A stretch of DNA of 64,000 nucleotides from Impatiens glandulifera. Lineage: Eukaryota; Streptophyta; Magnoliopsida; Ericales; Balsaminaceae. The stretch is taken from assembly GCF_907164915.1 (NCBI RefSeq), contig NC_061866.1:24197905-24261904 (forward strand), given 5' to 3'. Below, piece after piece: positions 11,804-44,507 of this stretch (position 1 is the first letter of the stretch; each line of letters opens with the position of its first letter). The notes under the pieces are model-generated. The model was not told where the DNA came from. It saw nothing but the letters and a program-made list of their open reading frames with translations, and searched no databases. The translations under genes were made by a program, and so were the position numbers.

Positions 11804-12474
11804 TCATAATTTTGGAGTTAGATAGGGGTGTACCTTCACCGATTTGGATCTGTAGATATTGAAGAATTTTCTCGATCGGCATAGCGTAGGCTTGAACCCG
11901 ATCTTTTGTCCCAGCAACCACTTCGCATAGTTGCTCGAAGAGTACACACCGGCACAATGGATTTTGTCACTTCGGACTATACCGACCATCATTTCAAGTT
12001 TCAGCCGGGTCATGTTGTCAAAATTTCCTCCTTTTCCTTGTAGGGATTTAGAGATTATATCCATTAACCATCGGAAAACCGGCTTCAGTTACTCTTCTTG
12101 CTGGTGTGATCCACCAAGTCAGCTACGTCTTTTGAAATTGCCAGCCGAACCGCCGTAGAGTCGGCTTTTGATAGATCGGTCTAGAAATCCCTTCCTTCAT
12201 TGGACAAACCAAGAGCTTTAGCAAATAACTCCTCGTTGATCTCAAAAGTTGTGCTGCATACGGTGGCAGTTATGACTCTTTTCCTTAGACTTGCCTGGCT
12301 GAAGAACTCCAGGACTTCATTATGATGAAGAACGAAAGGGCCATTCAGGAAAGTCTCCAAACCCGAGTCCTCCAGATATCCGATCAAGGCTTTGTACTCG
12401 TTGGTTACATTTTCTTCGATTTCGTTGAAGTTGAACTGTAAAATATAGGTGAAAAGTGCGTTATCTCGTCCCAT
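11804..12474 (-). pseudogene. A xORF3: N-terminal xORF domain
   Basis: The ATG at 12474 starts MGRDNALFTYILQFNFNEI. Family motifs follow: SGLETFL, VLEFFSQA, the EINEELFAKALGLSNEG block, then a stop at 12181-12183 and frame changes before VRSDKIHCAGV...NYAKW (about 11990-11930). B1 and B2 read through the corresponding positions. It is probably the N-terminal domain of a single xORF3-xORF4 protein. The promoter with the E2F-like palindrome is just upstream. Confidence 0.82.
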
Positions 12475-12583
12475 GGTGGTTTGAAAGATAGAGTAGAGAG
12501 GATCTTGAGAGATAAGATGCAAGAGTGTTTTGGAAATTTTTAGAGAGAGAGAGCGTGGAATGAATAATGAATCAACTTTTAAT

Positions 12584-12654
12584 TTATATAAGGAGCGGTT
12601 ACTTGATGGTTAAGAAACCGAACCGTCACGTCGTTGCGAGTTTTTGGCGCCAAA
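12584..12654 (-). promoter_or_regulatory. A xORF3 promoter: TATA box and TTTGGCGCCAAA
   Basis: TATATAA on the - strand at 12584-12590, 110 bp before the ATG (12474). The perfect palindrome TTTGGCGCCAAA is at 12643-12654, a match to the plant E2F consensus TTTSSCGS. Further upstream several GGCGGTAA repeats (+ strand sense, about 12670-12745). The same arrangement is found in B1 and B2. Confidence 0.8.
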
Positions 12655-12898
12655 ACTCCCTCCAAAAGTTAATGCGGTAACTGTTGGCGGTAAATTAGGG
12701 TGGTAAATTTGAGCGGTGAACTAGAGGCGGTAAACTATTGGCGGTTGATTTTTGAAGTTTAGCCGAATTTTAATGTTAAGCCGAAATTTTGATGATAAGC
12801 CGGAAAATATGATGTTGAGCCGGAATTTGATGTTAGGCTGAAATAGTTAGAGAAGGTGAATGATTTTGAATTAAGCCGATAATATTGATAAGTGAAGT

Positions 12899-12937
12899 GA
12901 TCACCCGGTCGTACAACAAAATGACCAAGATGACCGG
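12899..12937 (-). other. A hairpin after xORF2, weakened stem
   Basis: The loop sequence GTACAACAAAAT on the + strand (ATTTTGTTGTAC in sense) is flanked by GGTC/GACC. Only a short core stem remains, compared with 12 bp in B1. Confidence 0.6.
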
Positions 12938-12997
12938 AAATGAATCGGTACAATGACAAAAAGAATTATCGACGGCGAAGGTTCATTTCGTCCATCT

Positions 12998-13720
12998 TCA
13001 ATGCCCAATCCTCCATGGTGTAGCCGGTCCGCTTTTGATTCTTGTAATCCAGCTTTCCATCATTTCACTAGTCATCGTGTTTGCCAGGTCTACCGGGATT
13101 CTTGGTCCGAGATTTAGAATGAAGGAACGAATGTACTGGGTAATTTGGGGAGCGAAGCCGATTCTTCTTCTGGGAGCCGCTATATACCCCTTTAGGTTGT
13201 TGAAGATGAGGGTGGCCCAATTTATGGGCGAGTAGTTTGTGATTGCGATCATGATGTCACTCACTTGCTGAGTGTAATTTTGATTCGCCATTCGTCCCAG
13301 GATTGACCGCTGGATCAAGTCTTGGAGGATTTGAAAATGAGGAGCTAGGTCATCTTTCATACCGCAGCATCCAACCTTATGTCTGTTGCTGGAGAAGATG
13401 TGTGCATAGTGCTCATTCGCTTCGACGAGAGGAGTTGGAAAGTCAGAAAACCCTTTGGTTGAAAGGTTGAAAAGATCTACGTACGACTCTTCAGTGAGCC
13501 AGTAGAACTAGTAGTCAATGTAGGTGGTGATGCTTCCATCATCCATTACATGTGCATTGTTCAAGAACTCGTGCACCTCCTCTTCGAGGATGGTGTCCGA
13601 TCCTTCAAGGAATGTTTGTAGACCGGAATAGATCCATGGTTTGACCAGAACATTGTTGAGTCTGTTGTCGAGAACGAATTCGAAGTCAATGATGATGAAG
13701 TTTCGGATTTCCGCATTCAT
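12998..13720 (-). pseudogene. A xORF2: second accessory gene, broken
   Basis: The ATG at 13720 (MNAEIRNFIIIDFEFV). Then SGLQTFLEGSDTILEEEVHEFLNNAHV matches B1 and B2 almost residue for residue, before a TAG at 13508-13510. The second half (13360-12998) shows MKDDLAPHFQILQDLIQRS, NQNYTQQVSDIMIAI, SPINWATLIFNNLK and ends near WITRIKSGPATPW. Two frame breaks separate the halves. Unrecognised function. Confidence 0.82.
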
Positions 13721-13827
13721 TTTGAGAGGAAAGGGGAAAGTTGTGATATAGATATGAAGGTTCAAAATATATATATAGAGAGAGAGATACTTTCAAAGTG
13801 TGATTTGTTTGAAGGGGAATGATGTCT

Positions 13828-13834
13828 TTATATA
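13828..13834 (-). promoter_or_regulatory. A xORF2 TATA box
   Basis: TATATAA on the - strand, 108 bp before the xORF2 ATG at 13720. The leader contains a CTCTCTC/TATA run. Conserved in position with B1 25907-25913 and B2 44179-44185. Confidence 0.75.
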
Positions 13835-14117
13835 GTGCAAGCGGTTATGAGATATTTAATGAGAATATTTTGAAAAATCTCACCCTTTATGTATTGTCAA
13901 TAAATGCTTGATGCCTTTTCAAGATAATAACCTTTTTGGAATTGTACGATGTATGCTAACTAGCCTATCCGGACTAGGCACGCCTTTTGGTTAATGAATA
14001 TGTCTATTCCCAATGAGGATTTGAAATTATTCGTTTTAGGATATTTTCAGAGTTTAGGGATTTTATGTCCTAAAACTGAGCCGAAAAAGGAAATATTTGT
14101 CATTAAAAAAAGTGATG

Positions 14118-14155
14118 TACCGAACCGGTAGTACAATAAAATTACCGGTTCGGTA
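14118..14155 (-). other. A hairpin after xORF1 (13-bp perfect stem)
   Basis: Arms TACCGAACCGGTA (14118-14130) and TACCGGTTCGGTA (14143-14155) are perfectly complementary around the 12-nt loop ATTTTATTGTAC (sense). B1 has CCAAACC/GGTTTGG where A has CCGAACC/GGTTCGG, a compensated difference. Confidence 0.85.
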
Positions 14156-14296
14156 ATGGAAAAGAAGGAGAAGCAAGAGAAAATCAGCATTAGTCGGTTG
14201 AAAAACAAAAGAAGATTAATAATGGGATGGCCCAACTATTGGGGTCTTCTTGGCCTTTGTCTTGTCTCACCTGTCGATCATCTCTTGGATCCTCTC

Positions 14297-14950
14297 CTAT
14301 GTCAACAGCTGGTTCAGGTGGAGAATGATACCCGAGCCATGATAGTTGTTGAAGTGGTTGAACAAACCGCTCAACTGTGGAGCATAACCAGTTTTGTTGG
14401 AGAGAATTAGCTCCTTCAGGTTGTCGAATATGATTCTCGACCAATTCACCCTTGTTCCTTCGGTGATGGTCATCATCATCTCGAAGATGCGTTGGGTGTA
14501 GTTTTCGGACTTGTCCCTGACCATGATGGACTTACTTAAGATCTCGCTAAGAACCTGGTATTCGTTAGCGAGACGACTCTTGGGTCTCCAGGTGTTAACC
14601 GGGGTCATAGAGTCGGAAAAGTGGTGTTTCATCTCTTCGATGAACACCGGGGAGTAGATCTGGTCGGTGACACCTTGGGTTGGCAGCTCGCAAAAATTTG
14701 CGAAATCTGTCGAACTGAAGATGAATAATTTTCCATAGTTTTGAGCAAAGATGACTTCTGGATGTATCACCCTTGCTGTGTCGAAAAACTCATTAACTAA
14801 GGAGTAGTTAATGGCATATCGGTTCTCTAAGAACCTTCTCAGACCGGTGCTCTCAAGAGCTCCGAAGATGCATCGGACTTCATTGTCGTCAGAGTTGGCT
14901 ACCGATTCGAAATCGGCTAGGAGAACCTTTTTAGAGAGAGAGCAAGGAAT
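14297..14950 (-). pseudogene. A xORF1: first accessory gene, start codon lost
   Basis: In frame from about 14930: KVLLADFESV, STGLRRFLENRYAINYSLVNEFFDTA, VIFAQNYGKLFIFSS, DFANFCELPTQGVTD, LANEYQVLSEILSKSIM, YTQRIFEMMMTI, RVNWSRIIFDNLKELILSNKTGYAPQLSG, stop at 14297-14299. The body is open for over 200 codons, but the ATG present in B1 (24846) and B2 (45244) is absent. Confidence 0.82.
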
Positions 14951-15032
14951 TTTTAGAGAGTTTTGCTTAGAGGGTTTTCTTGTGATGAATAGTGTTTTGA
15001 ATAGTGTTTTTAAGTTGGATTAGATTAGCTAC

Positions 15033-15215
15033 TTATATAGTCAGCCAATGGTAAGAATTCTTAGAGATGTCATTTCGTAATTATTATGAGGTTAACTTGT
15101 GTAAGTGTATAATGTTTGTTTCCAATGACAAAGTAATGATGGAAAAAAGATTTTCATCATGGTTTTAAAAATATGGAAGGGATGTTAGTCTTCTTCTTTC
15201 AGTGATGGACACGTG
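15033..15215 (-). promoter_or_regulatory. A xORF1 promoter: TATA box and G-box
   Basis: TATATAA on the - strand at 15033-15039 and a CACGTG G-box at 15210-15215, with a TGACG-type motif beside it. The same order is seen upstream of xORF1 in B2; B1 has a degenerate G-box (ACATGTG). Confidence 0.7.
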
Positions 15216-18316: not shown

Positions 18317-18494
18317 TGATAGAAAAATTAAGTAAGTTAATTTCCAAACCGGCCATACATTACGATTTTTAAATATTTATTATAAATAATCAAAAAGGGA
18401 GAAATTGATAGAAAAATTAAGTAAGTTAATTTTCAAACCGGCCATACATTACGATTTTTGAATATTTATTCTAAATAATCAAAAAGGGAGAAAT
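18317..18494 (+). repeat. Two 89-bp tandem units, each an LTR edge plus PPT
   Basis: LTR-like starts TGATAG occur at 18317, 18406 and 18495, spaced exactly 89 bp. Each unit ends with AAAAAGGGAGAAAT, the PPT sequence. The same spacing is in the 3' LTR (30406, 30495, 30584). Confidence 0.95.
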
Positions 18495-18791
18495 TGATAG
18501 AAAAATTAAGTAAGTTAATTTTTGAAACCGGCCAGAAAACTAAACTACTATTAAATCTTATGTGCAAGAACAAATCGACTCGTATAAACTGGCTGGAACT
18601 TCATAAACCGGTTCAGGATCATATAAAAGCAATCCGGCTCCAGATGATCAATCCATGATGAAGAGAAACTGGTCTCAACATATCTCAACATATCTCAACA
18701 TTCTCAACAGACCGGCTAACAAAGAAAAAGTTTACATTCCAAGCCGGATTATACTATGAAAGAGTCAACCGGAAACTACGAACTACAAAGA

Positions 18792-19105
18792 TGACGTAAT
18801 GTGACGAAATAGACGTGTCTTGGGAAAATAAAAGAAGATAAGATCCGGATCAGAAGCATGCAATAAAAACAATGATGAAACAGCTGATCCGAAGATCCGA
18901 CTCATACAGCTGGAAGGTGCATGCCTGACACGTGTCCAAATCTGCCAGCCGGCTACGTCATTCATACCTGAGAGGTATCTGCATGCTTGCCAAGTGTCAT
19001 GAAGTTGAAACGTGCAAGCAACCTCTCTGAACCGGCGTGAATTTGAATTGACCAATCCCACGGTGAGAGAAGAAAGTGACCGTTGGAATGCTCTTCACTA
19101 TAAAA
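18792..19105 (+). promoter_or_regulatory. B1 LTR promoter: TGACG pair, G-box, TATA
   Basis: TGACGTAA (18792) and TGACG (18802) form an as-1-like pair, followed by AGACGTGTCT. A CACGTG G-box is at 18929-18934 and TATAAAA at 19099-19105. Such bZIP-type sites are typical of stress-responsive plant LTRs; activity here is inferred. Confidence 0.6.
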
Positions 19106-19320
19106 GGAAGACGAAGCGACCTCATTAATGACAAGTCACGAACATCTTAAGAGAGAGAAAGAAATCTCACGCGTGATCCAAAACCGTTGTACAATTTACC
19201 GAAAGCTTTGTTTGTGTTGTGTTAGTGTATTACATCAAGAGTGAGTTGGTGTAACCGGCGAGTAGCGAGTTAGGCTCGACCGGCAGTGTAATTGTTGTAA
19301 CTTTGAAAGTTAGTGGAGAT

Positions 19321-19380
19321 CCTTCTCAAAACCTGAGAGGAAGGGGTGACGTAGGAGGGTTTGCTTCGAACATCCATAAA
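19321..19380 (+). other. Conserved two-hairpin LTR module (B1 copy)
   Basis: CCTTCTC pairs with GAGAGGAAGG (hairpin 1), then GGGGTGACGTAGGAG, GGAG pairing with CTTC (one G-U), and GAACATCCATAAA. It lies about 215 nt after the TATA box, so within the transcribed part of the LTR, possibly near the polyadenylation region. Confidence 0.7.
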
Positions 19381-19722
19381 AAATCCTGTCTCGTATCGTT
19401 TATTTAATTCTTGCTTACTTAACTCTAAAACCAAAATACAAACCAAAACATAATCTCACTCCTCAATCAAAACTGGTCCACTCATATCTCTAAAACCGAC
19501 TCCTCATAAACCTCATCCAAGTCGCGTACGTTGCTTCAGACTGAAACAGACATTTCCGCCCTTGAACCCGGTTCAAGAGTTTATGACAGTTTACGTGGTG
19601 CTGAGAAAGGTCATAGTCTCTAACCGGACTATCACCAAAGTGTTGTGTGTTATTGTAAGCGGCCACCCTTACTAAAACCGGAAACACCCCGGTCCCCCAA
19701 GGGCGTCCCCGATCCTAACAAG

Positions 19723-19734
19723 TGGTATCAGAGC
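19723..19734 (+). other. B1 primer-binding site (initiator tRNA-Met)
   Basis: TGGTATCAGAGC lies two bases after the LTR end. It matches the standard plant copia PBS complementary to the 3' end of initiator tRNA-Met. Confidence 0.95.
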
Positions 19735-19765: not shown

Positions 19766-20870
19766 ATGGGAAGCATGACCCACAACGACAAGCCACCAAT
19801 GCTAAATAGTGAAGCGTTTAGCAGCTGGAAGAAACAGACTTACCTACATCTAATCACGCTGGATGATGAGATGAGCAGAGTTCTGAAGAAGGACCAATCA
19901 AGATCAAGAAGGATATAGATGCATGGACAACTGAAGATCGAAGACGGAGCAACCTGGACAACCATTGCATGAGGCACATCTACAAAGCTATAGACGATAA
20001 CACCTTGAACAAGATATCAGACTGTGAAAATGCAAAGGAAGCCTGGGAAACGATCATTCAGATCCATGAAGGAAACGAAAGAACAAAGGAGAACAAAATC
20101 TTGGTGGCTACACAAAAATATGAAAACATCAGGATGAAACCGGGGGAGAACATGAAGGAATTTAGCAACCGGTTCACCAACGTAGTCAACGAGCATCAAA
20201 CACTCGGAAAGAGATACGACAACCGAAAAGTAATCATTAAAGCCTTAAGATCACTGCCAAGCACATGGGATATCAAAACCATGGTGATGAGGGAATCAAG
20301 CAACCTCGGGCAGATGAAGTTGCATGATGTGTTTGAGGATCTTAAAGCATATGAGTTCGAGATTAAGTCTCGGATCGAAGATAAGGCATCTACGTCAACC
20401 GCAACCAGAGCTTTGGTTACATCGGTGGAACCGAGGTCCAAGTATCAACCGTTCCGGCTCCAGTCAAAAACGCTGATCAGATCAGTGAAGATGTGATGGC
20501 GATGTTAGCTCAGAAATTTGGGAGATTCATGAAGAAGAACCAGCCGCCATCTAACAACAACTTTAATTATAATTATGTAGACAAATCAAATAAAAGATAC
20601 TATAACTGTGATGGTTTTAAACATTTCAGGTTAGAATGTAGGAAACCGAGAAGAGACGACAAAAAACCGAAAGGCAACTATCAAGGCAACAACTACCAAG
20701 GCAACCGGAACCAGGGTAACAAATACCAAGGAAATGACTATCGGAGAAATGACAACCAACGGAACGACTACCGGAGAAACGATAACCAGCAGGTCGATGA
20801 GGGGAAGGAAATACAGAAGGCATTCATTGCATCCGACAATGGAAGCGAATGGGCGTATTCCGACAACGAG
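19766..20870 (+). pseudogene. B1 gag, two frameshifts
   Basis: The ATG at 19766 (MGSMTHNDKPPMLNSEAFSSW). A one-base loss near 19891 and another shift near 20433 split it; 19969-20496 covers the UBN2-like gag core (AKEAWETIIQIHEGNERTKENK, MKPGENMKEFSNRF, LRSLPSTWDIKTMVM). The CCHC knuckle (about 20598-20640) has Tyr for its first Cys (B2 keeps Cys), then YQGN/YRRND repeats (about 20670-20790), probably RNA-binding. Gag builds the virus-like particle. Confidence 0.9.
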
Positions 20871-21335
20871 AATGATGAGGAAAGAGTAACATGCTTCATG
20901 GCAAATGACGAAGAGGTTAGGAGAAGCAACCGACTAAGGAACTCGGAATGGTATCTGGATAGAGGATGCTCGAGACACATGACCGGCAACGATAAGCTGC
21001 TAGCAGACATCACCTATGAAACCGGAGCGGTTATCACGTTTGGTGACAACTCGAAAGGTAGAACTGTGGGCAAGGGTAAGATTGTCCATGGTAACCTGTC
21101 CATAAATAATGTACTACTGGTAGAAAACTTGCATTTTAACTTGTTAAGCATCAGTCAAATGTGTGATGTAGGATACAAAGTTGAGTTTCATAAGAATGCA
21201 TGCTTAGTTAAGAATCATCAAAATGACATCCTTTTAACCGGTAACCGAATGAGAAATATTTACAAAGTTGATTGGAAAACTGATTTTGAAAAATCTGTAT
21301 GCATGATAGCTGGAAATGATCCGAACTGGCTCTAG
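20871..21335 (+). pseudogene. B1 protease region
   Basis: SEWYLDRGCSRHMTGN holds the aspartic protease site. The catalytic Asp is retained (20958-20960), but the following residue is Arg instead of Ser/Thr. Conserved downstream: GKGKIVHGNLSINNVLLVENLHFNLLSISQMCD. A TAG at 21333-21335 ends the frame just before the integrase zinc region. Confidence 0.88.
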
Positions 21336-22552
21336 CATAAACGGCTAAACCATTTAAACTTCAAAACAATAAACTTCATATGTTCTAGGGAATTAGTTCA
21401 CGGTTTTCCAAATGTTAAATTTTCAAAAGATAAAGTATGTGCTGCATGTCAAATGGGTAAACAAATAAAATCATCTTTTAAAAGTAAAGGAAATTATCAA
21501 TCTGAACGATGCTTAGAACTCCTGCATATGGATCTGTTTGGTCCGGTTAGAGTAACCAGTTTAGGAGGCATGCAATATACCATGGTAGTTATTGATGATT
21601 ATTCTAAATTTACTTGGGTAATATTTTTAGCTTCTAAAAGTCAAGCAACTCCAAACCTGATCAAACTGATTCTGAGAATACAAAATGAAAATTTTATTCG
21701 GGTAAACAAAATCAGAAGTGATAGAGGAACTGAATTTATAAACAGCAGATTAACTACTTTTCTTGATGTTTCCGGTATTAGACACGAGTTATCTAGTGCT
21801 AGAATTCCTCAACAAAACGGCCTGGCTGAGAGAAGAAACTGAACTCTCAAGGAATCCGCAAGGTCAATGATAGCCGATTCAAGTATTGCTCAAATATTTT
21901 GGGCTGAGGCTATCAACACCGCATGTTACACTCAAAACCGGTCTTTAGTAACTAAACGATTTTCCAAAACTCCTTTTGAGATATACTATTATCGGATTCC
22001 AAACATACGATATTTTCGAATTTTTGGTAGTAAATGTTTTGTTCACAACAACGGTAAAAAATATTTGACCGCTTTTGATGCTAAATCCGATAAGGGAATA
22101 ATGTTGGGATATTCGGCTGTAAGTAAAACTTATAGGATATATAACATTAGGACTTTAACAGTTGAAGAAACATCCCACGTTGTTTTTGATGAATCGGTTG
22201 AATGAAACACTGCATTACCCTTCGATCTTCACAACAAAATGGAAAATTTCAATATTGATTATAATGATGAAGATGAGATTCCGGTCATTAGACATTTTGT
22301 CAATGATCAAGCGGTTGATGCTGAACATCAGCCTGTTCAAGCTACTTTAACGCAGAAAGTTGACTCTTCAGTCTCAACTGAAGAAATCGGTCGGTCTGAC
22401 TCTGCTCAGCCTACCGATCAGTCTAACCTTGATCAGCCAACCGAAAGCTTGGTAGACACGTCTCGGATAATACTCAGAAGGAACAAAAATCATCCTCTTG
22501 AACTAGTAATAGGTAACATATCCTCACCCGTCCTCTTAAACCCTAACATAAT
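21336..22552 (+). pseudogene. B1 integrase, with stops
   Basis: Zinc region (VCAACQMGKQIKSSF, about 21440-21480); catalytic residues in HMDLFGP (about 21527), RSDRGTEF (about 21716) and PQQNGLAERRN (about 21808), so all three D, D and E are present. TGA at 21840-21842 replaces Arg; TGA at 22203-22205 breaks the tail. The frame 21867-22205 carries the C-terminal region and 22239-22552 the linker to RT. Inserts retroelement cDNA when intact. Confidence 0.9.
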
Positions 22553-23330
22553 TTGGAGCACTATGAAAACTCAGCTTTCATATCACAAATTGAGCCGAAA
22601 AAGGTGGATGAAGCATTGTCAGATCCCGATTGGATCCTAGCAATGCAAGAGAAATTAAACGAATTTGAGAGAAAAAAAGTCTGGTACCTAGTCGCTAGAC
22701 CGAAAAACAAACCGGTTATAGGAACACGATGGGTATTCAGAAATAAACTCAATGAAGACGGTTTAGTTACGAGGAACAAAGCCCGGTTAGTGGCTCAAGG
22801 CTATAAACAGGAAGAAGGCGTTGATTTTGAAGAGTCATTTGCCCCTGTAGCTAGACTTGAGGCCATTAGAATATTTTTAGCATATGCAACTTTCAAAAAT
22901 TTCAAAGTTTTTCAAATGGATGTCAAAAGCGCTTTTCTAAACGGTAAAGTAAATGAAGAGGTGTATGTTAATCAACCTCCAGGTTTCAAAAATTCAGAAC
23001 ATAAAAATCATGTTTACCGGTTAAACAAAGCCCTTTACGGTTTGAAATAGGCTCTAAGAGCCTGGTATGACACGTTAACACAATTCTTGTTTAACCACAA
23101 GTTTATAATAGGCTCAGTCGATAAACCACTTTTCAAATTTGAGAAAAAGGAACACATATTGCTTGTTCAAATATATGTTGATGATATTATTTTTGAATCA
23201 ACCGATCCAAATCTATGTGATAAATTCTCGAAAATGATGACTGACAAATTTCAAATGAGTATGATGGGAGAACTGAGTTTCTTCCTAGGACTTCAGGTTA
23301 AGCAGATCGAGACCGGAACGTTCTAAATAC
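22553..23330 (+). pseudogene. B1 reverse transcriptase, with stops
   Basis: Motifs: [65 protein letters not shown], then TAG at 23048-23050 in place of the LKQA glutamine. The catalytic YVDD is at 23174-23185 and MGELSFFLGLQV follows. A frameshift lies at about 23326. Active-site residues are otherwise intact. Confidence 0.92.
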
Positions 23331-24130
23331 CAGCCGAAGTACACAGCCAAACTACTGAAGAAATTTGGAATGGATACATGCGCTGAGGCGGCTACACCAA
23401 TGAACTCTTCCGTAAAGCTAGACAAAGATGAGGATGGTCAAGCCGTTGACATCACAGCATATCGGAGAATGATTGATCCCTACTCTACTTAACAGCTGGT
23501 CGACCGGACATCTTGTTTGCTGTTGGAGTATGCGGGAGATTTCAAGCAAATCCAAAGCAATCACATTACACTACGGCTAAAAGAATACTGAAATATCTGA
23601 AGGGAACTCAAGATGTGGGACTTTGGTACCCAAAAGACTCAAGTTTCAACCTCATAAGTTACTCAGACGCGGATTACGCATGATGCAAAATTGATAGAAA
23701 GAGTACAAGTGGAACATACCAATTCCTGGGTGACCGGCTAGTCACATGGAGCAGCAAGAAATAAACCTCAGTTGCAACATCAACCGCAGAGGTAGAGTAC
23801 CTAGCATCCGGAAGCTGTTGTGCACAACTCCTCTGGATTCAACAGCAGCTAAGGGATTTTGGTGTAATAGCTGAAGAATCACCAATATTTTGTGACAACA
23901 CCAGCGCGATAGCGATTACATACAATTCGGTGCTGCACTAAAGAACGAAACACATTGATATAAGACATCATTTCATCCGGGAACATGTTCAGGAGAAACA
24001 CATCCGGCTGGAATATGTCTCAACCGAGCAACAAGTAGCTGATATCTTCACCAAACCGCTACAAGAAGCTAAGTTTTCTCACTTAAGAAACATTCTAGGA
24101 CTTACTGATGTAAAGCAACTTATACCATAA
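23331..24130 (+). pseudogene. B1 RNase H and pol C-terminus, degenerate
   Basis: Homologous throughout to the A and B2 RNase H (SYSDADYA, TAEVEYLASGSC, FCDNTSAIAITYN, STEQQVADIFTKPLQEAKFSHLRNILGL, KQLIP then stop 24128-24130), with several stops and frame changes. Confidence 0.88.
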
Positions 24131-24187
24131 TCATACATGCATACTGCTTACATACATCATCATGAAAAACCGGGATATATGTTCAGG

Positions 24188-24205: not shown

Positions 24206-24758
24206 AAACCATATTCAAATAGGCCATTAAATATTCAAGGATGCTAATTGGGAAGAAGTCTCCGGTTAAGCCTGATCACTTCATGATATCAAATCACACG
24301 TATACTTACTACGCGGTTGAAATGACCTGGCAGAAGTGGAAAAACTTAATCCAAAGCTGAAATAATGTTGATGCGAGTCAACATTTCTTCACACCGGAAT
24401 AAACTATCCAACTAAAATTGATCACGGAAAACCGATTAGTATGAATGCATCCTGGTTTAGATAAACTGAACTCTTCCGGTTAACTTGGGACAACTAACCG
24501 TGTTTTCATGCATACCTTGAGAAATGAAGTCTGTAATTCATAAAATAGTTTACCTCAATCGAGATGACGACATGTGTCCATCATCAAGAGAGGGAAACTA
24601 ACATCTTGTCAATATATTTATTGTCATCATGAATATCTTAGTAATGATTAACTTTGCATTGAAAATAAACATTGTACAGTTCAACAAGTTAAAGCCTATT
24701 AACTAATTAATGACATCACTAAGCATGCTTAACCTATTGATCTAGCCGAACCCCTGGC
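24206..24758 (+). other. B1 spacer between pol and xORF1
   Basis: No coding potential. Contains TGACG and the CACGTG-like ACATGTG around 24563-24580 at the position where A and B2 have perfect G-boxes. It probably forms the upstream regulatory region of xORF1. Confidence 0.5.
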
Positions 24759-24765
24759 TATATAA
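24759..24765 (+). promoter_or_regulatory. B1 xORF1 TATA box
   Basis: TATATAA, 87 bp before the ATG at 24846, followed by a CA/CT-rich leader. The same sequence context (CCCCTGG before the TATA) occurs in B2. Confidence 0.78.
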
Positions 24766-24845
24766 ACAACACGTTGATCCTCACAACACTTCACAAAAAT
24801 CACTATTCACAAAAAACTCTCTTGAGCTAAAACTATCTCAAGATC

Positions 24846-25583
24846 ATGAACTCCGACCCACTCGCAAAGAAAATCCTGTTGGCCGATTTCAATTCTATTT
24901 ATCAATACGAAGACCATGAAGTCAAAGAAATGTTCCTAGCCGTTGAAAGAACCGGGCTAAGAGGATTTTTGGAGAACAGATTCATCCTCGACTACTTGGT
25001 AGTCGACGAGTTCTTCGAAACTGCAAAAGAGGTGCATCGAGACATAATCGTTGCACGAGTTTATGGTCAGACCTTCCTATTCAGCGAGACGGATTTTGCT
25101 GAATACTGCGGTTTACCCACTGAAGGAGTAACCAACCTTACTTACTCTCTGGTGACCATTGAGGAAATGTGTCATCGGTTCTCCAACTCCGACATCCCGG
25201 TTAGACCCTGGGGTGCTAAAAGCCAACTCTCTCACAAGTACCAGCTTCTATGTGAGATTCTGGGAAAGTCAGTTCTTGGTAGAGAGAAAAGCTATTACTA
25301 CACCCAGAGGCTCTTCGAGATGATGATTGCCGTTACGGTTGGGACACCGGTAAACTGGTCTTGGATCATCTTCAGCAATCTGAAGAAGATGATTCTCTCA
25401 AACAAAACCGGTTATGCTCCTCAGCTAAGCAGTTTATGTGCTAGTCTGGATATCCACTCCGGACCATTCGTCACTCTCCATCCGAAACACGTGCTCACGA
25501 AGGAGAGAATCTAGGAGCTGATCGACCGGTGGGAAGCAGCAAAGGCCAAGAGGAATCAAGCTGTCGGTTCATCAAATGTTTAA
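24846..25583 (+). pseudogene. B1 xORF1: first accessory gene, one amber stop
   Basis: The ATG at 24846 gives 222 codons (MNSDPLAKKILLADF...) to a TAG at 25512-25514. Reading on, ELIDRWEAAKAKRNQA continues to the natural stop at 25581-25583, as in B2. B2 has CAG at this codon, so this is a single C-to-T change. Motifs: RTGLRGFLENRF (35-46), VVDEFFETA (52-60), LFSETDFAEYCGLPTEGV (75-95), YTQRLFEMMIAV (about 155), VNWSWIIFSNLKKMI (about 170). No signal peptide, no membrane segment, no known catalytic motif. Function unknown; own promoter upstream and hairpin downstream. Confidence 0.85.
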
Positions 25584-25609
25584 ACTTTCTTCATCTCTTT
25601 TCCCATTCT

Positions 25610-25643
25610 CCAAACCGGTAATTTTGTTGTACTACCGGTTTGG
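25610..25643 (+). other. B1 hairpin after xORF1 (11-bp stem)
   Basis: CCAAACCGGTA (25610-25620), loop ATTTTGTTGTAC (25621-25632), TACCGGTTTGG (25633-25643). It lies 26 nt after the xORF1 stop, in the expected 3' UTR. The loop is identical to that after B2 xORF2. Confidence 0.9.
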
Positions 25644-25906
25644 TACTTTTCATTAATGAAAATCATTTCTTTCATTTTCGATCAAAACAAAGAAATTCTA
25701 AAAGAAATGATCAACATTAAATGCGCCGTATCAAACCAAATCAAATCAGTCTTGAAAACAGAAATATTCGCTCTCCAAGAAGCATGCTTGATCCAATTAG
25801 ACCATACATGACTTTATCCTCTTGAAAACTGATAAGGCATTTATGACCAGACATAAACGGTCTGATTTTTCAAATATTCTCATTAAATGCAACCAACCGC
25901 CCACAC

Positions 25907-25913
25907 TATAAAA
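25907..25913 (+). promoter_or_regulatory. B1 xORF2 TATA box
   Basis: TATAAAA, 104 bp before the ATG at 26011. A CT-rich tract (CTTCTCTCTCTAAG, about 25960) lies between. Confidence 0.78.
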
Positions 25914-26010
25914 GAGGCTTCATCCCTCTTCATCAAAACACACTTCAGATACTCTTCTCTCTCTAAGCTTCAAGAACTTCATTCGACCTTCATTTTTATT
26001 CCCTTCCAAA

Positions 26011-26771
26011 ATGAATGCCAAGCTAAGAAACACAATCATTGTCAACTTCCGTGAAATGTTGAACGCCCGGTTTCTAGAAACCATCTTCGCACCGATTGTA
26101 GAATCGGGACTTCAAGGCTTTCTTGAAGGATCGGACACCATCCTTGAAGAGGAGGTGTTTGAGTTCTTCAACAACGGGCACATCTTTGACGATAGTAGCA
26201 TAAGGACCATCATTGACGGGAGATTTCTTCGGATCACCGAAGAACATTTTGCTCAGTTCTTCGACCTTCCAACCGAAGGATTTTCCGACTTCCCAACGCC
26301 GTTCTTTCCGGCTAAGGAAGACTACGGCTTCATCTTCTCCTCATCCATCGATCCAATCGATGACCACGGAGAGAAGGATGACCTTGCTCCTCAATACCAA
26401 GTTTTTCATGACTTGGTTCAGCGGTCTATCATGGGCCGAATGCCCAACCAGAACTATAACTAGGAGGCTTCGACATCATGATAGCCATCGTCCGCAAATC
26501 GCCCGTAAACTGGGCTACCTACCTCTTCAACAACTTGAAGAAGTTTGTTTCTGCTCCAAGGGGAAGGATCGGTTTTGCTCTTCAAATCACCCGATACTTG
26601 GAGGTTCATCGTCGCAACCTCGGGCCCGGTGTTCCCGTCGGACCGGCCAACATCATGACTATATCAATGCTAGACAGATGGATATCGAGGATTGAGGAAC
26701 GAACACCCGACAACACTGTGGACAAGTGGGTTGACAGAATGATTGAGGGGGAGTGGCTCGATCTTCTCTGA
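26011..26771 (+). pseudogene. B1 xORF2: second accessory gene, one stop and a frame change
   Basis: MNAKLRNTIIVNF start. Motifs: SGLQGFLEGSDTILEEEVFEFFNNG (residues about 33-57), FLRITEEHFAQFFDLPTEGFSDF (about 75-97), KDDLAPQYQVFHDLVQRSIMGRM. TAG at 26461-26463 (B2 has an Arg codon), then the frame 26478-26771 with SPVNWATYLFNNLKKFVSAPRG, LDRWISRIEER and the final GEWLDLL. About 253 residues in all. Paralogue of xORF1 and xORF3. Function unknown. Confidence 0.85.
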
Positions 26772-26786
26772 TTCTATGTATTTTCC

Positions 26787-26823
26787 GGTTTTCTGGTCAT
26801 TTTTGTTGTAAGACCAGAAAACC
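26787..26823 (+). other. B1 hairpin after xORF2 (12-bp perfect stem)
   Basis: GGTTTTCTGGTC (26787-26798), loop ATTTTTGTTGTAA, GACCAGAAAACC (26812-26823), 15 nt after the stop. Stem unrelated in sequence to the xORF1 hairpin, loop almost the same. Confidence 0.9.
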
Positions 26824-27010
26824 ACTTAATCTCCTTATGTTTCGGATATATCTATAAATTTCACATTATTAAAGTCTTCGATTTTTTACATTAATCTTCG
26901 TTCGGGTTCTACTCTGAATAAACAAAAGACTTCATGTTAATCAAAGCTTCCGGCTAACAAAATTTCCGGTAAATCAAACTATCAAACAATGTTTGAAAAA
27001 GTTCAAAAAT

Positions 27011-27172
27011 TTACCGCCCACAGTTTTACCGCGCACGAAATTACCGCCCATAATATTCTCCGCATTTACCGCCTAAAGTTACTGCACTAACTTTTGGAGG
27101 GAAATTTGGCGCCAAAACTCAAAACCAAGTGACGGTTCAATTTCTAACCGTTCCAAACCGCACCCTATATAA
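27011..27172 (+). promoter_or_regulatory. B1 xORF3 promoter: TTACCGCC repeats, E2F-like palindrome, TATA
   Basis: Four to five TTACCGCC-type repeats (27011-27073), TTTGGCGCCAAA (27105-27116) and TATATAA (27166-27172), 114 bp before the ATG at 27280. The palindrome fits the plant E2F site TTTSSCGS on both strands. CT-rich leader (CTTTCTCTCTCT, about 27200). Confidence 0.8.
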
Positions 27173-27279
27173 GTTCAAAACAGTTCATTATTTACACAAG
27201 CTTTCTCTCTCTAAAATCTTAAACTCTCTCTGATTTCCGATCATCGTTGTTCTTCATCCTCTCTATTCACAATCTTATC

Positions 27280-27959
27280 ATGCCTCTAGATAAAGCACCA
27301 TTTCAATACATGTTGCAGGTCGATTTCAACGACATCGACGAACACGCTGCGGAAGAAAACAAGGTCGTGCTACAATCATTGAGAGATTCTGGACTAGAAA
27401 CATATCTTTCTGGTCCGTTCATCGTGCACCCGACGGAAGTTGTGGAGTTCCTGGCGACAGCGACTCTAACGAAGAGGACGGTATCTGCCACCGTGAACGG
27501 CAAAACGGTTAATATCACGGAGGAGATCTTCTCAGAAGTGCTCGGTTTGCCAAATACCGGGCTGGACTTCAAAACAAGCTTGACAGATGCAGAATCCAAC
27601 GCGGTCCGGTTGGCCATATCAGCTGATGACAAGAATTTGGTGACTCACTCCAGACGGAAGAACAAACTCAAGCCGGAGTTCAGATGGATGCTGAACATAA
27701 TCTCAAGATCACTTCAGGGCAGAAGAGGCAACTTTGATAACCTGACCAAGCTGAAGTTGAAGATGTTGATGGCGATTGTCCGTAGTGACAAGATCGACTG
27801 GGGAACCGTTCTGTTCGAACAGTTCTGCGATATGGTGGTAAAGAAGGATGGCGGGTTCAGGCTTACGCCATACAAATAGGGAAGATCCTACATTTTTTTC
27901 AAGTTGAACTCGGTAAAGGTGAACCGCTCCCATCCGGTAATCTTTTAAACTCTGAGTAG
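27280..27959 (+). pseudogene. B1 xORF3: N-terminal xORF domain of the large accessory protein
   Basis: The ATG at 27280 (MPLDKAPFQYMLQVDFNDI). Motifs: DSGLETYLSGPF, VVEFLATA, VNITEEIFSEVLGLPNTG, LKPEFRWMLNIISRSLQG, VRSDKIDWGTVLFEQFCDMV. The main frame stops at 27877-27879 after a shift. The alternative frame continues to a TAG (27957-27959) directly followed by the ATG of the tail. B2 has a Gln codon in place of this TAG, so the ancestral gene was one long ORF. Confidence 0.84.
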
Positions 27960-30160
27960 ATGAGCAAGAAAACTGCTAAAGCGGCTAGGCCGAAGTCATC
28001 TAGAACAAAATCATCAAAAGGAACCAGCTCGTCTGCACCGGTTGGTGAAAGTTCAGAACAAGCCAATCCTAAGGGAAAGGCGGTTCAAGCCGAAGCCCAG
28101 CAGAAGAATGGAAGAAAGAAGAAGTCGGTAAAGAAAAGCACTCAGAAACCGGTAGATTCCGGGAAAAACAATATCTTTTGACAACTCACCAAAGAGAACT
28201 GTAGATGTCTTCCAGCTGATCCCAATCAACATAGTTCATCCAAACCCAGCCGAATCCTCATCATCAAGGCAAACCGAACCCTCGGGGAGCCAAGAAACTC
28301 AGTCAAAGTCGAAGGAAATTTCGACTACAGAGGTTAGTGTTCATTCTGAAAACTCCAAGTCCCCGAACAAAAACCTCGATGAAATAATGGTCGACGTAGG
28401 TTTAAGAACCTCAGAGGTCATAGTGGACGTGGTCCAAAACATTGCTCATGAAACCGAAGACGACGTGACAAGTCTTCTCAAGCCAGTTGATCGGGTTGAG
28501 GTACCCGGTCAGAGTGAAATCCATGCGGTCGAAGAAACGGCCAACACAGAAAACATCATTCCTCCGGCTCAAGAGGGAAATATCGAAGAAAAAGATCCAT
28601 CCGGTTCGGCTGGGGACAAATCCGTTCCAACCGAAACAACGCTCCAATCGGCTCAAGATGGGCCAACCAACTCAACAATCACACCTGAAGGTTCATCTCG
28701 GGTTAACAAGGGAAAAGAAGTTATGCGTGAGGACTCTCTAGTGCAAAGAGACCATGAAACTCAAACTGTTCTACAACCTGAAATCATACCGGAAGCCGAG
28801 GTTTCTATCTCAGCAGAGAAAGAGGAAGAAATGTTTCAAAAGTTCATCCAGGATATGAACATGGAAGCTGAAGACCTGGCCACGTCTTATCATCTATGGG
28901 TCAGGCATGATCCCTGATTTCAACGGGAATGAGTACTGGGAGAAACTCGTAGCTCTGGAAGAGGAGGCTCTCAAGGTAACCGGTTCCGACGTTATTCAGG
29001 CCGCATATGCTAAAACCATGGTAATGGAAGAATACGCAAAGTTACAAGCGGTAACTGATGCCATGAAGAAGGCTGAAGGAGCAGAACTAACTCCAATGGA
29101 GTTAAGAATGCTTAAGCGGTTTATGAAAGTGCGGAATGACCTTACTCGAAAGATTGACCAGCTAGAGGCAGAATGGAAAGAGGAGTGCAAAACTGTTCTA
29201 ATGCACGCCGATCAATTTCGAAGCAAACCTATCTTTCACACCGGAGAGTCCTCCAAGACAGCAGAAGAACGGAGCAATATTCCTCCACAGACTAATCAGG
29301 CTCCGGGACTTGAGCAAGTGAAGGAATTGGTTGTTGACACGATTATCTCTTGTCTCCACAAGTACAATATTGCTACGGATGAGAAAATTGCAACCGTTGA
29401 AACCAATCTAACCGAAACCGTCCGGGCATCCATTCACTCAAATATTGTTGAAACCGTTCAAACATCGATCAAGTCAATGATCGCCGAATCTGTTCAAACC
29501 GCAACCGCTCCTTTTGATCGATATGATGCAGGCTATGGCAGCTCAGATTGAGGAGCTGTCTAAACTGCAAGCTAATAAGGCTCAAGAGCAGATTCGTGCT
29601 GATGTCGAAACATGCAGGAGACTTCAAGACGAAGAGGAGGAGAGAGAACGATTAAGAAAAAGGAAATTGAAGACAAAGATCATGAGTTGGCTAAGAAACA
29701 CAATGATGAAGAAAAGGCTGCTCAAGCAGAATCCACACCGGCTCAAGCCTATCACTCAATGAAAACGAGGAACAAGAACAAACGTAAGGCGGTTGAAACT
29801 CTAATGAAACAGGTGGAACGAAGCGGTCTAGAAGAGTTTCAACCGGTCGGACAATTTGAACAACCTCTAGATGAAGAAGAAGAGGAAGACGCTGCACGAC
29901 TCAACCGGCGAAAGGAGAAAGCATTTGAAGCATCAACCACACTTCCGAGCTCCGGTCCAATCGTTGCAAAACCATCTCGCCCACCCAGACTAGTAAGCGG
30001 CGGTTTCGGGTTCAAAAAACGAACTCCCGGTATATCAAGTATATTTGCCGGATGGCAAATTGACGCTGAAAGAAGAGATAGGGAGTGGAAGACGAGAGAG
30101 GAGGAAGAAAGGAAGCGGAAAGAAAAAGAAAACGAAAAGGGGGGACCATCCAAACCTTAG
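27960..30160 (+). pseudogene. B1 xORF4: long charged coiled-coil tail
   Basis: Consecutive open pieces in shifting frames: 27960-28181 (Lys/Ser-rich basic linker), 28387-28917 (acidic, Glu/Val/Thr-rich), 28907-29551 (helical; LTPMELRMLKRFMKVRNDLTRK, then ETVRASIHSNIVETVQTSIKSMI), 29612-30160 (KTRNKNKRKA, acidic DEEEEED run, REEEERKRKEKENEKGG, stop). It resembles scaffold or nuclear coiled-coil proteins only in composition; no family recognised. The last third is duplicated at 33965-35054. Confidence 0.78.
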
Positions 30161-30405: not shown

Positions 30406-31809
30406 TGATAGAAAAATTAAGTGAGTTAATTTTCAAACCGGTTATACATTACAATTTTTGAATATTTATTCTAAATAATCAAAAAGGGAGAAATTGATAG
30501 AAAAATTAAGTAAGTTAATTTTCAAACCGGCCATACATTACGATTTTTAAATATTTATTCTAAATAATCAAAAAGGGAGAAATTGATAGAAAAATTAAGT
30601 AAGTTAATTTTTGAAACCGGCCAGTAAACTAAACTACTATTAAATATTATGTGCAGGAACAGATCGACTCGTATAAACCGGCTGGAACTGTATAAACCGA
30701 CTGAGGATCATATAAAAGCAATTCGGCTCCAGATGATCAATCCATGATCAAGAGAAACCGATCTCAACATATCTCAACATATCTCAACATTCTCAACAGA
30801 CCGGCTAACGATGAAAAAGTTTACATTCCAAGCCGGATTATACTATGAAAGAGTCAACCGGAAACTACGAACTACAAAGATGACGTAATTTGACGAAATA
30901 GACGTGTCTTGGGAAAATAAAAGAAGATAAGATCCGGATCAGAAGCATGCAATAAAAACAATGATGAAACAGCTGATCCGAAGATCCGACTTAGACAGCT
31001 GGAAGGTGCATGCCTGACACGTGTCCAAATCTGCCAGTCGGCTACGTCATTCATACCTGAGAGGTATCTGCATGCTTGCCAAGTGTCAGGAAGTTGAAAC
31101 ATGCAAGTAACCTCTCTAAACCGGCGTGAATTTGAATTGACCAATCCCACGATGAGAGAAGAAAGTGACCGTTGGAATGCTCTTCACTATAAAAGGAAGA
31201 CGAAGCGACCTCATTAATGACAAGTCACGAACATCTTAAGAGAGAGAAAGAAATCTCACGCGCGATCTAAAACCGTTGTGTAATTTACCGAAAGATTTGT
31301 TTGTGTTGTGTTAGTGTATTACATCAAGAGTGAGTTGGTGTAACCGGCGAGTAGCGAGTTAGGCTCGACCGGTAGTGTAATTGTTATAACTTTGAAAGTT
31401 AGTGGACATCCTTCTCATAACCTGAGAGGAAGGGGTGACGTAGGAGGGTTTGCTCCGAACATCCATAAAAAATCTTGTCTCGTGTCGTTTATTTACTTCT
31501 TGCTTACTTAATTCTAAAACCAAAATACAAACCAAAACATAATCTCACTCCTCAATCAAAACCGGTCCACTAAAATCTCTAAAACTGACTCCTCATAAAC
31601 CTCATCCAAGTCGCGTACGTTGCTTCAGACAGAAACAGACATTTCCACCCTTGAACCCGGTTCAAGAGTCTGTGACAGTTTGCGTAGTGCTGAGAAAGGT
31701 CATAGTCTCTAATCGGACTATCACCAAAGTGTTGTGTGTTGTTGTAAGCGGCCACCTTTACTAAAACCGGAAACACTCCGATCCCCCAAGGGCGTCCCCG
31801 ATCCTAACA
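30406..31809 (+). repeat. B1 3' LTR (1404 bp)
   Basis: Same length and structure as the 5' LTR, including two extra 89-bp units; TATA 31188-31194; ends CTAACA at 31809, followed by TSD TGTGA and element A sequence. Confidence 0.95.
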
Positions 31810-31814
31810 TGTGA

Positions 31815-42120: not shown

Positions 42121-42801
42121 TTGCTCAGAGGTTAAAATATTACCGGATGCGAGAGGTTCACCTTCACCGATTTCGACTTGAAGGAACCGTAGGATCTTCC
42201 CAATCTACATGGCGTAGGCTTGAACCCGACCGTTCATTTTCACTAACATTTCGCAGAACTGTTCGAACAGAACAGTTCCCTAATCAATCTTGTCGCTGCT
42301 AACAATCGCCATCAGCATTTACAGCTTCATCTTTGTCAGATTATCGAAATTTCCTCCTTTACCCTGAAGCGGCTTGGATATGATATCCACCAGCCATCTG
42401 AACTCTGGCTTAAGTTTGTTCTTCCGGCTGGAGTGAGACACCAGATCCGTGTCATCACTTGAGATGGCTAGCCGGACAACATTAAATTCCGCAGCCGATA
42501 AGCTTGACTTGAAGTCCTTCCCAGTATTCGGCAAACCGAGAGCTTCCGAGAAGAGTTCTTCTGTGATGTTAACTGCCTTGCTGTACACGGTGGCGGAGAC
42601 TATCCTCTTCGTCAGAGTCTCCGTTTCCAGAAACTCTTCAACTTCCGACAGATGCACGAAGAACGGGCCATAAAGGTAGGTTTCTAACCCAGAATCCCTT
42701 AAGGATTGAAGCACAACTTTGTGTTCTTTTGCAGCGTGTTCATCGATGTCGTTGAAATCAACCTGCAAGATGTATTTGAAAAGTGTTTTATCTGATTCCA
42801 T
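42121..42801 (-). pseudogene. B2 xORF3: N-terminal xORF domain
   Basis: The ATG at 42801 (MESDKTLFKYILQVDFNDI); open for 160 codons with SGLETYLYGPF, VEEFLETE, VNITEELFSEALGLPNTG, LKPEFRWLVDIISKPLQG; a stop at 42319 and further stops before the join to the tail. Promoter as in A and B1. Confidence 0.84.
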
Positions 42802-42909
42802 GACGAGATTATGTAACGAAGAAGTTGAAGATCAGAGAGGATCGGAATGCAAGAGAGTGCTTGAGTTTTTTAGAGAGAGAAAGTGTGAGCAAATAATGAA
42901 ATGTTTGTC

Positions 42910-43075
42910 TTATATAGGGAGCGGTTTTGAACGGTTAGAAGTTGAACCGTCACTTCATTCTGCGTTTTGGCGCCAATTTTCCCTCCAAAAGTTACTGTAG
43001 TAACTTTAGGTGGTAATTGCGGAGAATAACTATGGGCGGTAAATTTTGTGGGCGGTAAACCGTGAGCGGTAAACA
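42910..43075 (-). promoter_or_regulatory. B2 xORF3 promoter: TATA, TTGGCGCCAA, GGCGGTAA repeats
   Basis: TATATAA (- strand) at 42910-42916, 109 bp before the ATG; TTGGCGCCAA at 42967-42976; GGCGGTAA repeats (+ strand) at about 43035-43075. Confidence 0.8.
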
Positions 43076-43228
43076 TTGAATTTTCAGATTTGTTTTGATA
43101 TTTGATTTTCTTGACCGGAAAATTTTGTTAACCGGAAGCTTTGGTTAACCGGAAATCTTTTATTTACTCAGATCAGAACCGGAAAGAAACTTATGATAGA
43201 AACCGGAGACTTAAAGATATGAAATTCT

Positions 43229-44071
43229 TTATATTAAGCCGAAACAAAAGAAGATGAAGTGGTTATCTGGTCGTACAACAAAATGACCAGAATAACCGGA
43301 AACTACACAAATTTTAAGAAGATCGAGCCACTCCCCCTCGATCATTCTGTCAACCCATTCATCCACGGTGTTGTCGGTTCGTTCCTCAATCCTCGATATC
43401 CATCTGTTCAGCATGGGTCGAGTCATGGTGTTGGCCGGTCCGACAGGAACACCGGGTCCATGGTTGGAACGATGAACTTGCAGGAATCGGCTAATTTGGG
43501 GAGCGAAACCGATCCTTCCCCTTGGAGTTGAAACAAGTTTCTTCAAATTATTGAAGAGATATGAAGCCCAGTTTATGGGCGATTGTCTAACGATGGCTAT
43601 CATGATATCAAAAGCCTCCCGGTTATAGTTTTGGTTAGGCATTCGGCCCATGATAGACCGCTGGACCAAGTCATGAAATACTTGGTATTGGGGTGCAAGG
43701 TCATCCTTTTCTCTGTATTCATCAACCGAATGAATGGAGCTGGAAAATATGAAGGCATAGTCTTCTTTGACCGGAAAATACGGCGTTGGAAAATTCGAAA
43801 ATCCTTCGGTTGGAAGTTCGAAGAAGTATGCAAAGTGCTCCTCGGTGAGCCGATGAAATCTTCCGTCAATGATGGTCCTTATGCTGTCATCATCAAGTAT
43901 GTGCCCATTGTTGAAAAATTCATACACCTCCTCTTCGAGGATGGTGTCTGAACCCTCGAGAAACTGTTGTAACCCAGATTCTACGATTGGTGAGAAGATG
44001 GTTTCTTCAAACCTAGAATTCAACACTTCATAGAAGTCGACGATAATGGTGTTTCTCATTTCAGCATTCAT
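43229..44071 (-). CDS. B2 xORF2: intact accessory frame, 280 aa
   Basis: The ATG at 44071 opens a frame that stays clear to 43229. Motifs: IIVDF, SGLQQFLEGSDTILEEEVYEFFNNG, FHRLTEEHFAYFFELPTEGFSNF, KDDLAPQYQVFHDLVQRSIMGRM, INWASYLFNNLKKLVS, NRWISRIEER, GEWLDLL. B1 stops after GEWLDLL; B2 has lost that stop and reads about 30 codons into the 3' hairpin. No membrane segment or catalytic signature. The best preserved xORF2. Confidence 0.85.
   Translation of the reverse strand: MNAEMRNTIIVDFYEVLNSRFEETIFSPIVESGLQQFLEGSDTILEEEVYEFFNNGHILDDDSIRTIIDGRFHRLTEEHFAYFFELPTEGFSNFPTPYFPVKEDYAFIFSSSIHSVDEYREKDDLAPQYQVFHDLVQRSIMGRMPNQNYNREAFDIMIAIVRQSPINWASYLFNNLKKLVSTPRGRIGFAPQISRFLQVHRSNHGPGVPVGPANTMTRPMLNRWISRIEERTDNTVDEWVDRMIEGEWLDLLKICVVSGYSGHFVVRPDNHFIFFCFGLI
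43261..43297 (-). other. B2 hairpin after xORF2
   Basis: GGTTATCTGGTC (43261-43272), loop GTACAACAAAAT, GACCAGAATAACC (43285-43297): a 12-bp stem with one bulge. B1 has TTTT/AAAA where B2 has TTAT/ATAA, a compensated change. Confidence 0.88.
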
Positions 44072-44178
44072 TTTCAAGAGAAGATTTGAACAGAGAGTGA
44101 ATGAGTTTTTGAGGATTCGAGCTTAGAGAGAGAAGACAATATTTGAAGTGTGATTTGATGAAGAAGGATGAAGCCCCC

Positions 44179-44185
44179 TTTTATA
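44179..44185 (-). promoter_or_regulatory. B2 xORF2 TATA box
   Basis: TATAAAA on the - strand, 108 bp before the ATG at 44071, with a CTCTCTCTAAG leader tract. Confidence 0.76.
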
Positions 44186-44445
44186 ATACAGGCAGTTGGT
44201 TGCATTTAATGAGAATATTTGAAAAATCAGACCGTTTATGTATAGTCATAAAGGCTTATCAATTTTCAAGGGAATAATAGATTGTCTAGTCTATTCGGAT
44301 TAAGCATGCTTCTTGGAAAGCGAACATTTCAGTTATCAAGACTAATTTGATTTTATTTGGTGTAGCGCATTTAATGTCTTTTATTCCTTTAGGATTCCTT
44401 TGTTTTCGACCGAAAAGGAAAGATAAGATTTTCATTAATGAAACG

Positions 44446-44482
44446 TACCAAACCGGTAGTACAACAAAATTACAGGTTTGAT
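44446..44482 (-). other. B2 hairpin after xORF1, one mismatch
   Basis: CCAAACCGGTA, loop GTACAACAAAAT (44459-44470), then TACAGGTTTG: the B1 stem with a C-to-A change in one arm. The loop is unchanged. Confidence 0.75.
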
Positions 44483-44507
44483 GATTGAGGAAAGAGATGA
44501 AAAAGAT

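Follow-up and report, generated by a model that had tools for sequence, protein, structure and literature searches.

The window analysed here (64,000 nucleotides of the Impatiens glandulifera contig NC_061866.1, positions 24,197,905 to 24,261,904; host genome 654 Mb) contains nested Ty1/copia retrotransposons, whose accessory genes and the putative promoters in front of them are the subject of this work. Element B1 possesses the long terminal repeats (LTRs), the copia gag and the integrase preceding RVT_2 that assign it to Ty1/copia, and its order runs from gag, integrase and RVT_2 to three accessory open reading frames (ORFs), a long charged tail and the 3' LTR (Table 1). Elements B2 and A are homologous relatives of B1 on the minus strand, and outside the TATA boxes their identity to B1 varies by region between 74 and 92% for B2 and between 55 and 80% for A. 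E1, which starts at position 1, is a distant relative of the A and B elements with one accessory ORF in view. Two sets of copies were employed for comparison. The B-type set comprises 39 aligned copies, that is, B1, B2 and 37 among the 42 matches listed; of the other five matches, one was the window, two were short copies (about 1.4 kb each) and two were fragments adjoining included copies. The E1-type set was formed by 40 of the 147 matches listed, spread across the identity range with preference for full-length rows, and its counts refer to 41 rows.

Table 1. Elements, accessory genes and putative regulatory features, with positions numbered from the first nucleotide of the window.
Feature	Position	Strand	Description
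E1 spacer	320..1085	+	9 TTAGAC motifs, TTTCCCGC, CACGTG, TATATAA
E1 E2F-type site	764-771	+	TTTCCCGC
E1 G-box	810-815	+	CACGTG
E1 TATA box	824-830	+	TATATAA, 262 bp before ATG
E1 accessory gene	1086..1868	+	260 aa, open, no TTAGAC; dN/dS 0.176 over 820 pairs
E1 tandem arrays	2304..3294	+	TTAGACGTG/CAGTCTAA; start of 3' LTR, shortly past polypurine tract (2129)
A accessory block	12181..15039	-	three TATA boxes and E2F-type palindrome
A TATA boxes 1-3	15039-15033, 13834-13828, 12590-12584	-	TATATAA
A E2F-type palindrome	12643-12654	-	in accessory block
Element B1	18317-31813	+	copia element; LTR pair 95.5% identical, Jukes-Cantor distance 0.046
B1 5' LTR	18317..19724	+	AACCGG/CCGGTT 11 times (0.51 in shuffles)
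B1 gag-pol	19870..24128	+	Ty1/copia order, decayed; PF14223, gag_pre-integrs, rve, SH3_retrovirus, RVT_2
B1 TATA box 1	24759..24765	+	TATATAA, 87 bp before ATG 24846
B1 accessory gene 1	24846..25514	+	222 aa, open; dN/dS 0.142 over 741 copy pairs
Hairpin 3' of gene 1	25610..25643	+	11-bp stem, loop holds TTTTGTTGTA
B1 TATA box 2	25907..25913	+	TATAAAA, 104 bp before ATG 26011
B1 accessory gene 2	26011..26770	+	frame broken in B1; dN/dS 0.158 over 26011-26460
Hairpin 3' of gene 2	26787..26823	+	12-bp stem, sequence unlike that of gene 1; loop holds TTTTGTTGTA
E2F-type palindrome	27105..27116	+	TTTGGCGCCAAA, upstream of TATA box 3
B1 TATA box 3	27166..27172	+	TATATAA, 114 bp before ATG 27280
Gene 3, conserved front domain	27280..27879	+	dN/dS 0.272 over 721 pairs; PF20167 31.5 bits
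Gene 3, charged tail	27880..30160	+	frame broken in B1
B1 3' LTR	30406..31813	+	pairs with 5' LTR
B2 accessory block	42319..45329	-	three TATA boxes and E2F-type site
B2 TATA boxes 1-3	45329-45323, 44185-44179 (TATAAAA), 42916-42910	-	in accessory block
B2 E2F-type site	42966-42973	-	in accessory block

In the B family, a conserved core promoter element is found at a fixed distance ahead of the accessory genes. A preliminary description of this DNA, based on the letters of the window, had proposed that each accessory gene owns a TATA promoter, and the boxes of B1, A and B2 indeed lie where it had placed them, with the same distances to the ATG in B1 and a looser arrangement in E1 (Table 1). 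Absence of the boxes from other copies, which by that description would have spoken against it, was looked for and not observed. When a box is counted as kept if the aligned place holds a TATA[AT]A word, boxes 1, 2 and 3 are kept in 37, 35 and 35 of the 39 copies. The distance from box to ATG is 80-89 bp in 38/39 rows for gene 1, 102-115 bp in 38/39 for gene 2 and 113-116 bp in 34/39 for gene 3. According to a dinucleotide shuffle, the chance of a TATAWAW word in the slot of 60-135 bp amounts to 0.021-0.093 per promoter, and the joint chance for the three B1 boxes, if independent, to roughly 1e-4. The argument that nine of nine positions in A, B1 and B2 exceed chance has to be abandoned, since these are homologous copies and the nine positions reduce to three. 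Likewise, the layout of box plus ATG proposed for all genes of A holds for its three boxes but not for its first gene, which lacks an ATG at the aligned start; and the CT-rich leader ascribed to each gene is found in leaders 2 and 3 (C+T 0.59-0.67 vs 0.51-0.59 upstream), whereas leader 1 is hardly CT-rich (0.52-0.53 vs 0.49-0.51 upstream).

Conservation of the boxes beyond that of their flanks, a check proposed in the preliminary description, is manifested by the three boxes together. Mean diversity over the 39 copies is 0.0075, 0.058 and 0.039 for boxes 1-3, as compared with 0.048, 0.119 and 0.143 for local A/T columns, with P values of 0.09, 0.15 and 0.012 for the single boxes and a combined P of 0.002. 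Among 1423 noncoding heptamers the boxes rank 9, 293 and 105. Each box alone is only moderately special; jointly they do stand out. In addition, 20 of the 21 TATA columns are identical between A and B1 (P 0.004).

Further signals accompany the boxes on both sides of the genes. About 60 bp ahead of TATA box 3 lies an E2F-type palindrome, complete in 22 of the 39 copies and with its core present in 33, and the E2F-type site of E1, with different flanks, stands 60 bp ahead of the E1 box (exact in 26/41 rows), followed by a G-box (29/41 rows) just ahead of the TATA. The E2F consensus TTTSSCGC occurs at four places only in the 64 kb, namely before TATA box 3 of B1, A and B2 and before the E1 box. 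An overall excess of such sites in the window was considered and discarded, with 6 consensus matches against 3.5 expected; it is their position alone that stands out. Behind genes 1 and 2, hairpins with unrelated stems share a U-rich loop, whose word was recognised by pattern in 32/39 and 29/39 rows, respectively. For gene 1, 432 of 468 cells are paired over the 12 pairs tested (slid controls 47-203), the outermost pair, which falls outside the stem, reaching 22/39. For gene 2, the figure is 410 of 466 cells over 13 pairs (slid controls 131-244), the weak pairs being the outermost, again outside the stem (3/34), and one inner pair (22/36). Because the stems were read from the same sequences, some pairing excess over the slid controls is expected. 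B2 keeps the loop behind both genes, where 3 and 7 pairs, respectively, make up the uninterrupted stem, and A keeps it behind gene 2 only, with 7 pairs. The loop resembles the far-upstream elements of plant poly(A) signals. A hairpin with this loop was not found downstream of gene 3 of B1, next to the 3' LTR, nor was the loop word found downstream of the E1 ORF; being the last gene and next to the LTR, gene 3 could use the LTR signal for its 3' end. The interpretation given in the preliminary description is partly supported: putative separate transcription of the accessory genes would fit the conservation of the boxes, their spacing, the E2F-type sites and the hairpins after genes 1 and 2.

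At the protein level, codon positions and the ratios of nonsynonymous to synonymous substitution (dN/dS, Table 1) show purifying selection on the products of genes 1-3 and of the E1 gene. The three accessory ORFs reported before in B1 are present, but ORF2 is broken (gene 2 is open in B2 within 43229-44122) and ORF3 is the front of a longer frame, which among the copies listed attains 963 aa without inner stops and 1054 aa in a row with two. Genes 1-3 are mutually paralogous, with 24-28% identity. The idea that they travel as cargo finds no backing here: their paralogy, their fixed placement in A and B and the purifying selection give the impression of genes that have belonged to the element for a long time. 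They are very abundant in the genome, a first look giving 19075 word-level candidates for the E1 gene and 17626 for gene 3, figures that are not gene counts. A structure model of the gene 1 protein (predicted local distance difference test, pLDDT, 78.7; predicted template modelling score, pTM, 0.77) had VANC21 as its best fold match in Foldseek, which predicts a VANC21 fold for this protein. The search for sequence relatives among solved structures returned none that is credible (best E 0.73), and a search of a plasmid collection gave no match. When 11 accessory proteins were compared with Pfam-A at E up to 10, with weak matches mostly filtered out, four families were matched and DUF1985 was absent. 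PF20167 (Transposase_32) gave a weak profile match in 5/11 members, the best being that of gene 3, and none of the matching proteins reached its curated 45-bit gathering cut-off. Regarding the tail of gene 3, the piece 28156-28917 had no match in Pfam and the piece 28859-29551 only matches under the cut-off.

According to PMC5735166, and likewise to PMC10398659, VANC21 binds a nine-base motif that is situated, often as tandem repeats, in noncoding parts of the family to which VANC21 belongs; VANC expression leads to methylation loss, and a related VANC targets other families. Over-represented words were therefore sought in E1, A and B. TTAGAC is the top word in the noncoding DNA of E1 (67 vs 2.5 expected); when the upstream spacer is taken by itself, three words that overlap within TTAGACGT and its kin precede it. 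Compared with shuffles, it occurs 9 times vs 0.51 upstream, 58 vs 1.78 in 1869-3900 and 0 vs 0.36 in the ORF. Over the 41 E1-type copies, the upstream spacer carries 351 motifs in 31.5 kb (11.13/kb), with motifs in every row, as opposed to 11 in 32.1 kb (0.34/kb) in the ORFs. The TTAGAC columns are less diverse than their surroundings, 0.068 vs 0.142 within 420-740 (P 0.0004, local controls), and the same test over 320-1085 gives P 0.004. These motifs occur on both strands and also outside arrays. At the LTR start, E1 and 7 further copies hold 10-67 motifs per ~1.23 kb; at five of these eight loci the polypurine tract was unmatched or unused, and an equal distance from the ORF was taken. Palindrome-like TTAGACGTG/CAGTCTAA arrays are also seen at 57663-57898 and 59054-59490, in a stretch resembling the E1 LTR. 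In the B family AACCGG is one of the leading words: it heads the list for B2 spacers and takes rank 2 in the B1 LTR, rank 3 in B1 spacers and rank 7 in A. Its density in B spacers is 4.58/kb, or 3.60/kb without the gene 1 hairpin, and the two A LTRs hold 3 and 2 copies vs 0.31 and 0.39 expected. An 89-bp tandem repeat that opens the B LTRs (18317-18534, 30341-30623) includes a polypurine-tract-like word and one AACCGG. The E1 and B families share hardly any over-represented words. As far as the presence of motifs goes, which is not binding, the pattern in noncoding DNA matches that of VANC closely in E1 and only in part in B.

Among the closest known systems is the VANC of the Arabidopsis VANDAL elements, likewise transposon-encoded, with the fold predicted for gene 1, a conserved domain followed by a long further region, as in gene 3, and clusters of short motifs, often tandem, that lie in the noncoding DNA of the respective family and differ from family to family. 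It is different in that the carrier here is a Ty1/copia LTR retrotransposon instead of a Mutator-like VANDAL, that up to three paralogous genes are present, that DUF1985 is unmatched by sequence and that the B motif is also found in coding DNA. The weak, sub-threshold profile likeness to PF20167 connects the proteins with a family annotated as 'putative plant transposon protein', for which we know of no tested function. Plant mobile domain (PMD) proteins, found in transposons and as MAIN/MAIL1, went unmatched by the 11 accessory proteins in Pfam-A, where weak matches were mostly filtered out. They have a similar motif pattern. According to a PMD review, these transposon-related plant proteins presumably derive from Ty3/gypsy, and it is suggested that transposons might use them as a counter-silencing device (PMC8616336). 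Extra ORFs beside gag-pol have also been described in plant LTR retrotransposons, for example in Ty3/gypsy elements and, as a dsRNA-binding-like ORF, in the sunflower Tekay; by description they encode another protein (PMC12844716), while here the elements are Ty1/copia, with several paralogues and a conserved TATA box each. For the extra ORFs of Tork and Athila, the same text (PMC12844716, January 2026) names the effect on methylation of LTR elements as still to be investigated. Within the literature surveyed, a limited search of partly available texts, no retrotransposon-encoded VANC is described, VANC being found there in Mutator-like elements. In foamy viruses, an internal promoter makes a transactivator. 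That system shares with the present one a TATA promoter inside a retroelement that drives accessory genes before the 3' LTR; it has a single promoter, for the transactivator, and belongs to an animal virus, and homology is not implied.

Taken as a whole, the best explanation, which we regard as modestly probable, is that the accessory genes encode VANC-like anti-silencing DNA-binding factors expressed from their own TATA promoters. The observations behind it are the conservation of the boxes and their spacing, the purifying selection, the hairpins and the motif distribution. In a Ty1/copia lineage, the DNA between pol and the 3' LTR would harbour a single accessory gene in the E type and three paralogous ones in the A/B type, each gene probably a small RNA polymerase II unit; genes 1 and 2 would end at their own 3' hairpins and gene 3 at the LTR. 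With own promoters, the supply of accessory protein would be independent of a silenced LTR. From the E2F-type sites, dividing cells are suggested as the place of expression, perhaps with timing to S-phase. The E1-type protein would read TTAGAC, often as TTAGACGT, in the spacer that precedes its promoter and in the arrays at the LTR start, oppose DNA methylation in a family-specific manner and allow the silenced LTR to fire again, the accessory proteins in general opening LTRs and spacers within the family that encodes them. The fuller version of this proposal, a multi-gene system of up to three diverged VANC-like paralogues with own, partly E2F-type promoters, acting in trans on family-specific arrays of LTRs and spacers, is put forward tentatively, as somewhat less than probable.

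Several results weigh against this explanation. A canonical box is found in 14/41 rows of the E1 family, the remaining ones carrying variants, and the conservation of the E1 box is nothing unusual (rank 561/758), which leaves the TATA claim weak for that family; the column conservation of the E1 E2F-type site is middling (rank 190/758). Genomic RNA would have to pass the poly(A)-like signals behind genes 1 and 2. The stretch between ORF and LTR of E1 copies holds 15 TTAGAC in 11.4 kb, 14 of them from one row. As for AACCGG, B ORFs carry it too (2.07/kb), and its columns in B LTRs are barely more conserved than other columns (0.098 vs 0.116). The 27 E1 rows without a canonical box would be accommodated if the boxes were AT-rich spacer words kept by descent and the genes were read from the LTR transcript via splicing or re-initiation. 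Boxes 2 and 3, not singly exceptional, point the same way, and so do the 110 AT-rich heptamers near the boxes, 48 of which keep at least six bases between A and B1 and 28 all seven. We consider this quite unlikely in view of the joint conservation in both comparisons, the constant spacing, the E2F-type sites at a fixed distance and the hairpins behind genes 1 and 2.

The nearest rival of the anti-silencing explanation leaves methylation alone and makes the accessory proteins transcription activators of the LTR and the internal promoters. It draws on the anatomy shared with the foamy-virus transactivator, that is, an own promoter with motif clusters in the LTR and ahead of that promoter, and on the match of the gene 1 model to a DNA-bound structure; the sole solved relative, VANC21, is however an anti-silencing protein, and we judge the activator role unlikely. 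Particle or RNA functions of the proteins (packaging, RNA chaperone or envelope-like), with the motif clusters as unrelated LTR repeat growth, seem highly improbable to us. Tandem repeats grow easily in LTRs, as the 89-bp array of the B LTRs illustrates, and weak Foldseek rows (E of at least 0.72) include nucleocapsid and envelope chains; but the E1 motifs lie also outside arrays, on both strands and with conservation above their surroundings, and apart from VANC21 none of the best 50 of 124 and of 383 fold rows falls under E 0.1. Among solved and predicted viral structures, none matched at E <= 0.001.

The anti-silencing explanation bears on how plant genomes become filled with LTR retrotransposons in the face of methylation. 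Should it be true, a retrotransposon would bring the key to its own lock, with the protein and its candidate target, TTAGAC or AACCGG DNA, both named. Sequence-specific anti-silencing would then extend past Mutator-like DNA transposons, as a wider and modular weapon of plant mobile elements, and part of the 'putative plant transposon protein' families without known function would gain a working hypothesis.

With regard to the surroundings of B1, the LTR pair of element A is 92.9% identical (Jukes-Cantor distance 0.074), and between these LTRs (7748-55644) lie B1, B2 and a direct duplication of 4.9 kb (29074-33961 / 33969-38855, 97.4%).

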